64,000 nt of DNA, taken from Chloroflexota bacterium. GTDB taxonomy: Bacteria > Chloroflexota > Anaerolineae > Anaerolineales > UBA11579. Position 1 is the stretch's first letter, and each line of letters begins with the position of its first letter. The stretch lies in NCBI GenBank assembly GCA_018662365.1, contig JABJGH010000053.1:18760-82759 (forward strand). Direction: 5' to 3'. Positions 8,597 through 13,135 of this stretch are shown one piece after another. Under the pieces are notes generated by a model. That model did no database searches. It was given only the letters and a program-made list of their open reading frames with translations, and was not told the DNA's origin. A program made the translations under genes and the position numbers.

Positions 8597-8624
8597 TTGA
8601 CATTTTCAATTTAATCCCTATAAT
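8597..8624 (+). promoter_or_regulatory. sigma70-type promoter of the DUF2089/SHOCT operon
   Basis: Consensus TTGACA (8597-8602) and TATAAT (8619-8624) are separated by 16 nt. Predicted start is near 8631, leaving a 44-nt leader to the ATG at 8675. This is one of the two best -35/-10 pairs in the window. Confidence 0.8.
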
Positions 8625-8674
8625 CTTTAGATATTAGCAGGTTGTTTTTACCTTTTATAAGGTTAGGATTAAAA

Positions 8675-8872
8675 ATGTTTACTCAAAAACCATTATTCTT
8701 TAGGATCATCGGCACAAAACCCTTTGCGGTTTTAGATCAGGGAAATCTCTTAGTAAAAGAATTATCTAGTTTTATTCCTCAACTTGCTAAAAAACTCATA
8801 AAGAAATATATGCATGCCCCCACCAGACCATATCGGCAATTCTATATGGGTCATTGGGACGAAGATTGTTAG
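8675..8872 (+). CDS. small basic protein, first gene of the DUF2089/SHOCT operon
   Basis: 65 aa, no family recognised. The track begins at TTG 8642, but ATG 8675 is preferred because AGGTTAGGA lies just upstream and the earlier start would sit about 10 nt from the predicted transcription start. The protein is hydrophobic at the N-terminus, Lys-rich in the middle (LAKKLIKKY), and ends in an aromatic/acidic tail (FYMGHWDEDC). No zinc motif or clear TM helix. Twelve nt before the DUF2089 gene and behind the same promoter, so its role is probably tied to that operon. Confidence 0.6.
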   Translation: MFTQKPLFFRIIGTKPFAVLDQGNLLVKELSSFIPQLAKKLIKKYMHAPTRPYRQFYMGHWDEDC

Positions 8873-8884
8873 GAGTTTATCAAT

Positions 8885-9271
8885 ATGTATCCAGTAATCA
8901 ATGAATGCCCAGTCTGTGATGGAGAATTAATCATTACAAACCTTGAGTGCAGAGAATGTGACACAAATATCAAAGGTCGATTTATTTCTGGACCTTTTGG
9001 TGAATTAACAAATGCTCAAATTGCTTTTGTTGAACTCTTCGTACAAAGTGAAGGAAAGATCAATCGCATGGAAGAAAAGATGGACCTCTCCTATCCGACG
9101 ATCCGAAACCGTTTGAATGAAATTATTCGGGCTCTAGGTTATGAACCTGGGCAAGAAATTTACCAAGGTCTTACGGAAGATGAACACAAAAGCATTCTTG
9201 AAGATCTAGAACTTGGCAAAATTGACTATCAGGAAGCAATGAATTTACTAAAAGAAAGTGAGGAAAAATAA
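8885..9271 (+). CDS. DUF2089 protein: zinc ribbon, HTH and SHOCT-like C-terminal module
   Basis: 128 aa. An N-terminal zinc ribbon has CPVC (8-11) and CREC (22-25). An HTH-like segment follows at about 55-85 (SEGKINRMEEKMDLSYPTIRNRLNEII), then RALGYEPG. The C-terminus, residues about 103-126 (EHKSILEDLELGKIDYQEAMNLLKES), is the short helical SHOCT-like module that recurs in the next three proteins. The HTH suggests a DNA-binding regulator, plausibly of its own operon. The stop precedes the next ATG by 1 nt. Confidence 0.85.
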   Translation: MYPVINECPVCDGELIITNLECRECDTNIKGRFISGPFGELTNAQIAFVELFVQSEGKINRMEEKMDLSYPTIRNRLNEIIRALGYEPGQEIYQGLTEDEHKSILEDLELGKIDYQEAMNLLKESEEK

Positions 9272-9272
9272 T

Positions 9273-10574
9273 ATGGAGCGATTCTTATTTGAAACATCAG
9301 AATTCCCAAAAATCGTAGCTGAAAATATTAATGGAAGTTTGAGAATTAAGGGATGGGACCGAAACACTTTCCGAATTGATACAGATTCTCCCAACTCAGC
9401 TAACGTGGATCAGGACGGGAATACATTTAACGTTAATTCAAAGTCTGGATGTTTGTTTAGGGTTCCTTTAGAAAGTGAGATCATCGTTGAAAATGTAAGC
9501 GGGGATCTGACTATTAAATCAATTGAAAATTCATTAAACCTCGAAAACATAAATGGCCAAGTAATCCTCAAGAGTGTTGGATCCACTACATTAGAAAAAG
9601 TAAAAGGGAATTTCTCTTCTAAGCATATTGAAGGTGATCTCAAAATTGAATCCGCAAATGGCAATGTGATGATCCGAGATGTGGAAGGGAAAATTATCCT
9701 TGAAGATGGAAAGGGGAACTTTAATTTCAGCGGCATTAGCGGGGACGTTGATATAAAAACAAAAGGGAATGCAAATGTTACCCTTGAACTCGATTTTGAT
9801 GGCACATACAACATTGAAGCGGGTGGCAACATTGTCTGCCAAATTGAATCTACGATTAATGCAAACGTAAAATTTAGCAGCAAGGCAAATTCAATTCGAA
9901 TTGATACAAGGGATCAAAACGAAATTTTTGCAAATAAAGAATTCGAAATAAATCCTGAAGATGGAGACTGCAAGATTCAATTGACTGCAGTTGGAAAGAT
10001 CGAATATATCGAACTGGGAAAACACGATCATACTTCGAGCTCATTTGGTTTTGAACATTTAGATAACTTAAATAATGTTGGGGAAAACCTTAATTCTCTT
10101 GCTGACGGTATTACCCAACAGGTTTCTGAGAACTTGGGGAAATCGATAAATTCCATTACCGACCAGATCAGTTTGATTATGGACAATATTGGCAAGAATA
10201 AAACGGTCACAGAAAATGCACGCAAAACATTAAAAATAAAACAACGAGAATTGCGCGAATTGACCAAAGCACAACGGGATGTACTTAGGAAATCCAGAAA
10301 GGAGACTGGTTCGGACAAAAAAGGATCTAGGCATCGTAGGGATATTAGATTTCACGCATTTCACCAAGAGGAAAAAAATGTAGATCCAGTAAGTGACGAA
10401 GAAAGACAATTTATTTTACAAATGCTTCAAGACAAAAAGATTGATATTAATCAGGCTGAGGAACTGCTGGCAGCGCTAGAAGGAAAAGTACCAGAAATAC
10501 TAGAATCTGCGAAGAGTGAAAGTACCGCTGAGGGGCAAGACAACCCTGAAGAAACAAATGATGAAAGCAAATAA
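9273..10574 (+). CDS. DUF4097-like repetitive beta protein with C-terminal SHOCT-like module
   Basis: 433 aa from ATG 9273 (GTGAGG upstream is its ribosome site; the track's GTG at 9258 is five codons earlier). Residues about 5-250 are short alternating beta repeats (IVAENINGSLRIKGW, LTIKSIENSLNLENING, GDLKIESANGNVMIRDVEGKI), typical of DUF4097 putative adhesin/polymer-forming domains. Then an Asn/Ser-rich helical stretch, a Lys/Arg-rich segment (residues about 310-365) and the module ERQFILQMLQDKKIDINQAEELLAALEG at about 377-404. No signal peptide, so it is probably cytoplasmic or membrane-associated through partners. Confidence 0.75.
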   Translation: MERFLFETSEFPKIVAENINGSLRIKGWDRNTFRIDTDSPNSANVDQDGNTFNVNSKSGCLFRVPLESEIIVENVSGDLTIKSIENSLNLENINGQVILKSVGSTTLEKVKGNFSSKHIEGDLKIESANGNVMIRDVEGKIILEDGKGNFNFSGISGDVDIKTKGNANVTLELDFDGTYNIEAGGNIVCQIESTINANVKFSSKANSIRIDTRDQNEIFANKEFEINPEDGDCKIQLTAVGKIEYIELGKHDHTSSSFGFEHLDNLNNVGENLNSLADGITQQVSENLGKSINSITDQISLIMDNIGKNKTVTENARKTLKIKQRELRELTKAQRDVLRKSRKETGSDKKGSRHRRDIRFHAFHQEEKNVDPVSDEERQFILQMLQDKKIDINQAEELLAALEGKVPEILESAKSESTAEGQDNPEETNDESK

Positions 10575-10599
10575 ACCCGCCAGGATATTGGAGATATAA

Positions 10600-11361
10600 A
10601 TGTCAGATTTTATAAATATTCTCGAAAAAATCGAATCTGGAGAAATAACCGCCGACGAAGGCGCCAGACTTATGCTAGAAACAAAGAATATGGAGAATAG
10701 TCAATCCTCTGATTCTAAGGTTATTAAAGATATTGAAATATTGGATCTCATCGAAAAGGGAGAATTATCAATTGAAGAAGGGTTGGAAAAATTTAGCAAC
10801 CTAGAAGGATCAACTATATCCAATAGTCCTATGGATATTTCCTCAGATGAGAAGGGAAAGAGCGAAAATCAATCCAGCCATCAGTCCATGCCAATCACCG
10901 ATATTGAAATACGGAAATGGCAAAATTGGTGGACCATCCCAGTCTTTCTCGGCTTCTCATTTGCAACCCTTTCTGCATATTGGATGAATTCAATTTATGA
11001 AAATTCGGGTACTACTTTTTGGTTCTATTTTTCGTGGATCCCCCTATTCCTGGGCATTGCCATCATGGCATTTTCATGGCCAAGTCCGAACAGAACTTGG
11101 GTCCATATTAGGGTAAAACAAGCATATGGACAAAAACCTGAAAAGATTTCAATTAGTTTACCTATTCCACTAAAATTTGTTTCTTGGGCAATAAGAATAG
11201 CAAAAACATATGGTCCAGAAAAACAATTAGCCATGATCGATGAAGTGGCGATTGATGAATTATTATCGGGGTTTAGCAAATCTGCAAACAAAGGTACACC
11301 ATTTTTTGTAGAAGTTGCTGAGGGTGATAATGGTGAAAGAGTAGAAATATACGTTGGATAG
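10600..11361 (+). CDS. membrane protein with two N-terminal SHOCT-like modules
   Basis: 253 aa. The N-terminus carries the shared module twice: FINILEKIESGEITADEGARLMLETK (about 4-29) and DIEILDLIEKGELSIEEGLEKFSNLE (about 46-71). After a Ser-rich linker come two TM helices (about 109-129 and 139-160), then a soluble domain starting HIRVKQAYGQKPEKISISLPIPL and ending FVEVAEGDNGERVEIYVG. That C-terminal domain resembles the C-terminal half of the next protein (ISLPIPL/VNLPLSL, VEVAEGDNGERVEIYV/VDVEDLEDGEHIQVFI). Function unknown; topology suggests the modules face the cytoplasm. Confidence 0.7.
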   Translation: MSDFINILEKIESGEITADEGARLMLETKNMENSQSSDSKVIKDIEILDLIEKGELSIEEGLEKFSNLEGSTISNSPMDISSDEKGKSENQSSHQSMPITDIEIRKWQNWWTIPVFLGFSFATLSAYWMNSIYENSGTTFWFYFSWIPLFLGIAIMAFSWPSPNRTWVHIRVKQAYGQKPEKISISLPIPLKFVSWAIRIAKTYGPEKQLAMIDEVAIDELLSGFSKSANKGTPFFVEVAEGDNGERVEIYVG

Positions 11362-11381
11362 TATATATAGGAGAAGTAATT

Positions 11382-11759
11382 ATGGCAACCACAGAAGAAA
11401 GAATGAAAATATTGCAAATGATCCAGGATGAAAAAGTTTCAGCCGAAGATGGCGCAAAATTATTAGCCGCCCTTTCTGAAAGTAAAAGTCGTAGGTCTCA
11501 AAACATTAACCGCAATACCGAAGGACGCTATATGCGAGTTCGTGTTACCGACATGTCCACCGGGAAAACCAAGGTGAGCGTTAATTTGCCTCTTTCATTG
11601 GTAGATGCCGGATTAAATATCGCTTCAAATTTCATTCCTGACATGAATGGCGACAGCATGGAAGGTGTTTCAGAAGCAATTCGAAACGGAATGACTGGAT
11701 TAGTTGTAGACGTTGAAGACCTTGAGGATGGAGAACACATTCAAGTTTTCATTGAATGA
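11382..11759 (+). CDS. soluble SHOCT-like module protein, paralogue of the preceding C-terminal domain
   Basis: 125 aa. The N-terminal module ERMKILQMIQDEKVSAEDGAKLLAALSES (about 6-34) is almost the same as the C-terminal module of the 9273 protein. Then a basic linker and an alpha/beta domain (YMRVRVTDMSTGKTKVSVNLPLSLVDAGLNIASNFIP ... GLVVDVEDLEDGEHIQVFIE) that parallels the C-terminal domain of the membrane protein upstream, without the TM helices. It looks like a soluble partner or competitor of that protein. ATG 11382 follows AGGAGAAG. Confidence 0.7.
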   Translation: MATTEERMKILQMIQDEKVSAEDGAKLLAALSESKSRRSQNINRNTEGRYMRVRVTDMSTGKTKVSVNLPLSLVDAGLNIASNFIPDMNGDSMEGVSEAIRNGMTGLVVDVEDLEDGEHIQVFIE

Positions 11760-11772
11760 TCCTGGAGAAATT

Positions 11773-12315
11773 ATGCCACAAGTAGTAATTGAAAATACCT
11801 CAACAATAAAATCTGAGCGGAAGGTGACCATTACCAGCACAATTGGGGAAATGAACCATTCCCCTTCCGATTCTGACCATATCAACATTAAAGTAATTAA
11901 TCAATCTGGGTCAGTTCAACTCATTTTCGATTCCCCTCTTAAAACAATCGTAGAAACTGGCGATCATAATTCAAGGATAAATTTATTAGGATCGAATGCT
12001 GAAATTATATTAAATGATAATGGTGATAAGATCACTATTTCAAAAATATCAGGAAAAATAATTGCAAAAATCCGTGAGTTTGAGATCAATGATCAGGGAG
12101 TTGATCATTCCATCCAAAAACATTCAGCATCAGACCATATTAATATTCAATTCGACAAAACTGCAAGAAGTCAAACCTCGCCAATTGTTGTTCTAGTTCA
12201 AGCGAAATGGAACTTGTTTACAGAATGGTTGAGAAAATATCGAAATCTAATTACCCCAAAAGCAGACTTACATCATGGGGCTTCAAATATTTATCTTGAT
12301 AGATTTAATTTCTAG
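11773..12315 (+). CDS. last gene of the DUF2089/SHOCT operon, beta-rich protein of unknown function
   Basis: 180 aa from ATG 11773 preceded by TGGAGA; the track start (11713) lies inside the preceding gene. The sequence is strand-rich, with short Asn/Asp/Gly turns (INQSGSVQLIFDSPLK, TGDHNSRINLLGSNAEIILNDNGDKITISKISGKII) resembling a short DUF4097-like repeat domain. The C-terminus is basic and helical (AKWNLFTEWLRKYRNL). No SHOCT-like module. Thirteen nt after the previous stop and followed by a terminator, so it closes the operon. Confidence 0.6.
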   Translation: MPQVVIENTSTIKSERKVTITSTIGEMNHSPSDSDHINIKVINQSGSVQLIFDSPLKTIVETGDHNSRINLLGSNAEIILNDNGDKITISKISGKIIAKIREFEINDQGVDHSIQKHSASDHINIQFDKTARSQTSPIVVLVQAKWNLFTEWLRKYRNLITPKADLHHGASNIYLDRFNF

Positions 12316-12360: not shown

Positions 12361-12390
12361 AAAAAAAATGCCCAATTTTGGGCTTTTTTT
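12361..12390. terminator. bidirectional intrinsic terminator
   Basis: AAAAAAAATGCCCAATTTTGGGCTTTTTTT: stem GCCCAA/TTGGGC with a 2-nt loop as written, A-run on one side and T-run on the other. It separates the convergent SHOCT operon and the OmpR-type regulator, touching the end of the latter. Confidence 0.85.
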
Positions 12391-13135
12391 ATACATCCAA
12401 TCTATAACCAATTCCTCGAATTGTTGTGAGTAATTTTGGCTTTTTAGGGTCTTTTTCAATGGCCTCTCTTAGCCAACTAATGTGAACATCTAAAGTTCTC
12501 GTATCCCCCGTATAATTTGTACGCCAGACTTTTTTAAATAGATCATCTCGTTTCACAACTTCCCCCTGAAACTCCAATAACATTTTCAGTAGTCTCATCA
12601 ATCTTGGCGTCAGAGATGTTTTCTTGCCGTAACAAGTCACTTGCTTTCGGTCACTATTTATCTTTATGGGTCCTGCAACAACTATTTTTTTCTCATCGGC
12701 GGGCAACATCGGCTCAATCCGGTTGACCAATTTTCTCGAAGTAAAGGGCAGGACTAAATTTGTATTTGCACAATTATCGTTTCGAATATTTTTTTCTGGA
12801 TCAGAAATCATCATGATTGGCAAACCATTAGCCATTTCACGAATTGAATTACATATTCTTTTGCCACTGGTTCTCATCGATGCGGCATCAATTATCACCA
12901 AAGCAGGTTCCTCACTATCAATATAATCCAATGCCGCCTTTCCATTGGAAACAATATCCACAAAAAATCCTTTTTTGCGTAAAGAGGGAATAAAAATAGG
13001 ATCGCTTGTCCAGCGACCTTCTACCCATAATATTTTTGCTTCATTTGTCTTCTTGGATTTTTTTGGCATTCTGATATTATTTACCTTGTTTATCTTAAAA
13101 TATTGGTGAATTACCTTAAAATTTTCAAATCCCAT
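12389..13135 (-). CDS. OmpR-family transcriptional regulator with degenerate receiver
   Basis: 248 aa. The N-terminal CheY-like domain keeps an Asp at the phosphoacceptor position (VIIDA, D83), but the acidic pocket reads WVEG instead of VDD and the usual KPF lysine is Leu (LVLPF). The C-terminal winged helix at about 170-248 (TSLTPRLMRLLKMLLEFQGEVVKRDDLFKKVW ... LDVHISWLREAIE ... LTTIRGIGYRLDV) is canonical OmpR/PhoB type. No kinase gene is adjacent. Start at 13135 fits a promoter only 9 nt upstream; ATG at 13069 with weak AAGGTAA is the alternative. Target genes unknown. Confidence 0.85.
   Translation of the reverse strand: MGFENFKVIHQYFKINKVNNIRMPKKSKKTNEAKILWVEGRWTSDPIFIPSLRKKGFFVDIVSNGKAALDYIDSEEPALVIIDAASMRTSGKRICNSIREMANGLPIMMISDPEKNIRNDNCANTNLVLPFTSRKLVNRIEPMLPADEKKIVVAGPIKINSDRKQVTCYGKKTSLTPRLMRLLKMLLEFQGEVVKRDDLFKKVWRTNYTGDTRTLDVHISWLREAIEKDPKKPKLLTTIRGIGYRLDV

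Follow-up and report, generated by a model that had tools for sequence, protein, structure and literature searches.

Why should a DNA-binding protein, a membrane protein and two further proteins, encoded side by side, all bear the same small helical module? The question is raised by an operon in the window, i.e. the whole 64,000-nucleotide stretch of Chloroflexota DNA that was analysed. The best explanation as a whole is a one-component, autoregulated cell-envelope stress operon, a reading that is put forward tentatively and with a little less than even confidence. The features are the following, with the encoded proteins numbered P1 to P6.

8597..8624, forward strand: operon promoter TTGACA-N16-TATAAT of the sigma-70 type, 12/12 to consensus, with putative operator half-sites (from the sequence; conserved in relatives).
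8597..8609, no strand assigned: putative operator core TTGA-N5-TCAA (TTGA 8597-8600, TCAA 8606-8609), overlapping the -35 box (from half-site counts across promoters).
8675..8872, forward strand: P1, a leader small protein of 65 aa with no SHOCT module, in the same place as small ORFs preceded by a Shine-Dalgarno (SD) sequence in most long-leader relatives.
8885..9271, forward strand: P2, a DUF2089 regulator with a zinc ribbon, an HTH and a C-terminal SHOCT-like module at about 9173-9250 (Pfam; profile-profile comparison).
9273..10574, forward strand: P3, a Toastrack beta-solenoid (about 9273-10022), a long helical hairpin (about 10077-10319) and a C-terminal SHOCT-like module (about 10392-10478), as predicted from AF2, Foldseek and PF22746.
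10600..11361, forward strand: P4, two N-terminal SHOCT-like modules (about 10612-10674 and 10732-10797), a two-TM hairpin (about 10915-11076) and a C-terminal domain shared with P5 (about 11101-11355), from PF22746, alignment, AF2 and profile search.
11382..11759, forward strand: P5, an N-terminal SHOCT-like module and a soluble C-terminal domain homologous to that of P4 (PF22746 at 38.5 bits; alignment).
11773..12315, forward strand: P6, a beta-rich protein in a slot that holds a second Toastrack gene in 19 loci (neighbourhood comparison).
12370..12390, no strand assigned: bidirectional intrinsic terminator at the operon end, GCCCAATTTTGGGC followed by T7 on the forward strand and mirrored on the reverse strand.

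The five module segments quoted in the initial annotation were all found in frame, one each in P2, P3 and P5 and two in P4, and they form one SHOCT-like family: in profile-profile comparison, all pairs of the five module profiles reach a probability of 98.4-99.4%. The Pfam family PF22746 (SHOCT-like_DUF2089-C) scores 38.5 bits in P5, 32.3 bits in P4 (over two stretches), 26.7 bits in P3 and 15.6 bits in P2; with the cut-off at 27 bits, P4 and P5 lie above it, P3 0.3 bits below it and P2 below it as well. Within the aligned families, PF22746 is matched by 34/34 members for P3, 31/31 for P4, 43/43 for P5 and 42/45 for P2. A six-frame search of the whole 2.8 Mb genome (E < 0.01) returned the five window copies together with the C-terminus of a second DUF2089 protein. 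The Pfam matches, the pairwise probabilities and the genome-wide search together exclude a chance resemblance of the five segments, which was therefore rejected as an explanation. Members of the P4 family have one or two N-terminal modules. The second P4 copy is the weakest when taken alone (E 0.15, profile-profile) and is missing from many relatives; in close ones it aligns with a clear second module. The description as a six-gene operon built around the module holds for the four consecutive proteins that bear it, but not for the first and sixth ORFs (P1, 8675-8872, and P6, 11773-12315), which are without it. An orphan DUF2089 protein (L088:5425-5799; G000:C41:41927-42295) is 59% identical to P2 and has a SHOCT-like module of its own; its gene stands without the operon and without a consensus promoter, and relatives hold similar orphans.

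P2 has both parts that define a DUF2089 protein, the zinc ribbon (PF22747, E 1.3e-12, 48.0 bits) and the HTH (PF09862, E 1.6e-19, 69.8 bits), each above the Pfam cut-off. P3 starts at the ATG at 9273. In its AF2 model (overall pLDDT 82.7), residues 1-250 form a beta-solenoid at a pLDDT of ~97, followed by a long helical hairpin and a two-helix module. The best PDB match in Foldseek is 4qrk (E 1.3e-5, probability 1.0), and the matches 4qrk, 3pet, 4ygu and 4opw have probabilities of 0.96-1.0 at low TM-scores (<=0.34 on query length). As 4qrk is named as a Toastrack-fold structure by Ravi et al. (PMC11237479), the earlier label 'DUF4097-like' proved right by fold. Judged by its model, P3 fits the right-handed single-stranded beta-solenoid fold of Toastrack (DUF4097/DUF2154/DUF2807). 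At the sequence level, P3 itself has no Pfam DUF4097 match, and 14/34 aligned family members do (best E 3e-15). Compared with PDB sequences, the profiles of P3 and P5 gave nothing beyond helix-driven or chance matches.

For P4, the AF2 model (pLDDT 80.6) predicts a two-helix membrane hairpin. The C-terminal domains of P4 and P5 are homologous by profile search and belong to no Pfam family; the shared domain stays without a name, as the P4 model has no Foldseek match in the PDB with E < 0.001. The P5 family alignment has a mean column identity of 53%, and no relative of P5 was found among plasmids. P6 is without significant similarity. A decayed second Toastrack was considered for it and not accepted, the second-Toastrack profile giving only 8 bits. 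In several loci (L069, L074, L082, L085, L087, L093 and L094) the sixth gene is replaced by one for a short protein, which by its motif may be of the DUF309 type. Convergent to the operon, a gene for an OmpR-type response regulator lies at 12389-13135 of the window on the reverse strand; its receiver match is partial only.

The gene order DUF2089, Toastrack, two-TM protein and soluble paralogue recurs among 60 regions of relatives, some with extra inserted genes; this set includes one orphan copy from the window's own genome. A second set comprised 80 loci from named Anaerolineae and Chloroflexota genomes, some of which are common to the first set, so that the two are not fully independent. 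Here, a Toastrack gene together with a two-TM or soluble-paralogue gene was found in 52/68 loci with enough downstream sequence, and 13 loci are orphan DUF2089 genes. In other Chloroflexota classes, a Toastrack gene lies close downstream in 18/18 regions with a called DUF2089 gene, often accompanied by a soluble SHOCT protein. No two-TM protein of the P4 type was seen in these 18 regions, and the two-TM component is thus a feature of the Anaerolineae in the sample examined. The DUF2089 gene adjoins the Toastrack gene in the window and in most relatives. As judged from these comparisons, the gene set is kept across the Anaerolineae and its core across the Chloroflexota. The initial annotation was to be given up if the segments were unrelated or the genes not conserved together; the segments turned out to be related and the genes to be kept together.

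The operon had been placed from 8597 onwards, which coincides to the base with the start of the -35 hexamer. The 2.8 Mb genome contains TTGACA-N16-TATAAT with exactly this spacing at 10 sites, one of them the operon promoter. In the second set, 56/64 operon loci carry a promoter of at least 11/12 in the leader, compared with 0/12 among the orphan DUF2089 genes (Fisher p 4e-9, which is nominal because the loci are related). Leaders contain 1.44 sites/kb, 50 times the density of 0.029/kb in the remainder of these loci. The HTH motif is the same in orphan DUF2089 proteins, whose genes are without such a promoter.

Counting from the first base of the -35 box as position 0, a TTGA/TCAA starts at +9 in 19/58 non-redundant promoters, at -12 in 19/58 and at -21 in 16/58. 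At -12 or +9, about 0.7-0.8 would be expected and the maximum in 1000 shuffles is 5, an excess of about 25-fold. The -35 hexamer itself starts with TTGA, so that one half-site is the -35 box; since the promoters were chosen by their hexamers, evidence for an operator that is independent of this choice comes only from half-sites counted outside the hexamers. In the window copy, the +9 half-site is exact and the -12 half-site is degenerate (TAAA). An operator is predicted at the promoter, with half-sites that are supported by comparison.

Repressed promoters usually combine consensus boxes with a protein-binding site that covers the -35 box. With this layout predicted here, the DUF2089 protein is favoured as an autorepressor. 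It is likely, judging from the linkage only, that P2 is the protein binding the predicted site, and repression rather than activation is reasonably probable. With the opposite sign, DUF2089 would be an activator kept at the membrane by its SHOCT partners until stress frees it. The lia-like model of Ravi et al. also allows it, as transduction to a transcriptional output is proposed there with the sign left unfixed (PMC11237479). The half-sites at -12 and -21 would further agree with an activator, lying upstream of the -35 hexamer where activators bind. However, with -35 and -10 both at consensus in most loci there is little need for one, and the location of one half-site in the -35 box itself also speaks against activation, which is regarded as improbable.

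Across 61 genomes of the order, 8 sites match the exact 28-bp pattern TTGACANNNTCAAN9TATAAT, and 0 match a reversed-pattern control. Three of the eight sites precede DUF2089 operons and 2 precede MFS genes (the C6 copy in the window's own genome and a copy in G009); the remaining three lie before a FabD-like gene, a small glycine-rich membrane-protein-like gene and a hypothetical gene (named by eye). By its N-terminal sequence, the G009 MFS resembles, by eye, MFS genes inside or adjoining other DUF2089 operons. Seven other loci (L219 among them) have an MFS gene of the C6 type ahead of DUF2089, at a distance of 10-186 nt, and in five of these a promoter of at least 11/12 is positioned upstream of the MFS gene. 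The cargo of other operons consists of a DrrA-like ABC ATPase with ABC-2 permeases, an MFS or a GNAT acetyltransferase. Retention of the element at all MFS paralogues is not general: most of that type in the family are without it, and a general conservation of the operator across MFS paralogues was rejected on this ground. A regulon of the operon itself and exporters is predicted, with support from comparison. In one genome of the order, the exact pattern around 1500-2050 of L176 precedes a gene for a small glycine-rich protein, a possible further regulon member.

These counts also bear on a reading without any operator, in which a strong constitutive promoter serves an abundant structural complex, the half-sites reflect UP or spacer preferences of the promoter, and DUF2089 acts elsewhere. 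Other perfect promoters of the genome indeed precede housekeeping-like ORFs (aminoacyl-tRNA synthetases, an RNA polymerase subunit; read by eye), and spacers show position-specific A/T preferences. It is given a low probability: the fixed-position excess over shuffles argues against it, as do the tracking of the operon start by the element even when an MFS gene is in front and the concentration of exact matches before DUF2089 operons and MFS genes.

In leaders with more than about 200 nt between promoter and DUF2089, the promoter is usually followed by a small ORF of roughly 40-90 codons with an SD-like sequence. As the one ORF with the best SD was taken per leader, the choice is biased towards finding one, and the independent sign that these ORFs are genes is a motif common to most copies, G-x2-[LM]-[IV]-x2-G-x2-[LI]-[KQ] near the C-terminus. 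P1, the copy in the window, has diverged and is without the G-x5-G motif. No Pfam match was obtained for the leader protein, P1 included. An amphipathic helix was discarded as its general trait, the helical moment being clearly above shuffles in some copies only.

The reading of the locus as a membrane-to-transcription system had been offered together with the remark that no defined function was known for the whole set. The reading agrees with a published proposal, and the remark needs correcting. Ravi et al. 2024 describe DUF2089 as ZnR-HTH-SHOCT-like proteins in Toastrack contexts, for which a lia-like membrane-to-transcription role is proposed, with Toastrack as sub-membrane platform (PMC11237479). 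The core idea of signalling through DUF2089, Toastrack and SHOCT-like modules is thus already known from that work. Their contexts and the window operon have in common the split into zinc ribbon, HTH and SHOCT-like module, the Toastrack neighbor and the proposed role. The partner differs: LiaI-LiaF-TM, B-box or PspC in those contexts (PMC11237479), a double-SHOCT two-TM protein with a soluble paralogue in the window, where no Pfam match to LiaI-LiaF-TM, B-box or PspC was found in P1-P6. This lack marks a different variant within a family whose variants are described in PMC11237479. Compared with the main text of Ravi et al. (PMC11237479), the window operon adds the leader protein, the conserved putative operator-promoter and the exporter linkage. 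No earlier report was found of the operator-promoter, of the same element before MFS exporters or of the leader-protein pattern; within the searchable literature, no paper deals with an operator for DUF2089.

LiaX/LiaXYZ of enterococci and YvlB (yvlABCD) of Bacillus likewise combine SHOCT-like helices and Toastrack in one protein and have an envelope-stress role (PMC10269926, PMC9239133, PMC11237479). The module order is reversed: Toastrack precedes a C-terminal module in P3, whereas LiaX and YvlB have N-terminal SHOCT-like helices and a C-terminal Toastrack. LiaX works with the LiaFSR two-component system (PMC10269926, PMC9239133, PMC11237479); the window operon contains no LiaFSR system, no kinase and no PspC. 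With the classical Psp system (PspA/PspBC), the operon shares the broad theme of sub-membrane envelope stress. Membership was rejected, as PspA/IM30 is without a match in the operon's own genome (0 for PF04012 at 94% completeness; controls matched). Three PspC-domain genes (L259, L260 and L261) occur in this genome, where PspA was not detected, on other contigs than the operon. In leaderless bacteriocin clusters, a DUF2089-family protein also lies beside ABC exporter genes; these proteins are shorter (89-98 aa) and the tables examined list no Toastrack (PMC7332713, PMC10707071). Unlike those clusters, the window operon is without bacteriocin peptides (PMC7332713, PMC10707071).

Overall, comparison supports the gene set, the modules, the predicted fold, the promoter, the putative half-sites and the exporter linkage. 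In the proposed mechanism, P2 would bind TTGA/TCAA half-sites over the -35 box of the perfect sigma-70 promoter and thereby repress the operon; an MFS exporter would be governed by the same site, too, in some genomes. P3 (Toastrack), P4 (two-TM anchor) and P5 (soluble paralogue) would build a sub-membrane complex. Since P2 bears the same SHOCT-like module as these three, the complex could dock P2 at the membrane, either directly or via a common partner. A disturbance of the envelope would draw P2 off the operator and let the strong promoter fire; the complex would then be made in larger amounts, together with exporters of the MFS or ABC-2 type, according to lineage. Judging by the exporters in the cargo, membrane-active or toxic compounds may be the signal, and membrane or xenobiotic stress is somewhat favored.

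For the module-based docking of P2, the chances are considered even. One canonical SHOCT domain was negative in a homo-oligomerisation test (PMC3581485), which calls for caution about direct contacts between modules; docking could instead go through a common partner or the membrane surface. The same result would suit modules that are membrane-surface anchors only, as proposed by Ravi et al. (PMC11237479). In that case, the modules would not bind each other, and P2 would be tethered to the membrane and meet the DNA there. P4, however, bears one or two modules in addition to its two TM helices, and in this protein anchoring alone would be redundant. Such an anchor-only role is rather improbable, and it can be true alongside the operator part of the stress-operon reading.

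Several points count against the envelope-stress operon with P2 as its repressor. Orphan DUF2089 proteins could act in trans or at other sites, the +9 TCAA/TTGA is exact in just 19/58 promoters, most MFS paralogues of the family are without the element, and the consensus promoter could mean merely high constitutive expression. A more complete scheme is more speculative and rather doubtful: a phosphorylation-free envelope-stress switch, in which SHOCT-tag docking onto a membrane Toastrack/two-TM complex would remove the small DUF2089 repressor from its dedicated TTGA/TCAA operator, with a portable exporter regulon across the Anaerolineae and with the leader small protein acting as a further sensor or as an anti-repressor.

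Regulators of the DUF2089 family occur widely, as do SHOCT-like tags, and the searchable literature gave neither a DNA target nor a mechanism for DUF2089. A predicted operator, a predicted regulon and defined tagged partners turn the proposal of Ravi et al. into specific questions, namely whether TTGA/TCAA is bound by DUF2089, whether the effect is repression, and whether the tag brings the protein to the membrane. If true, the operon would be a candidate PspA-independent envelope-stress system for the Chloroflexota.
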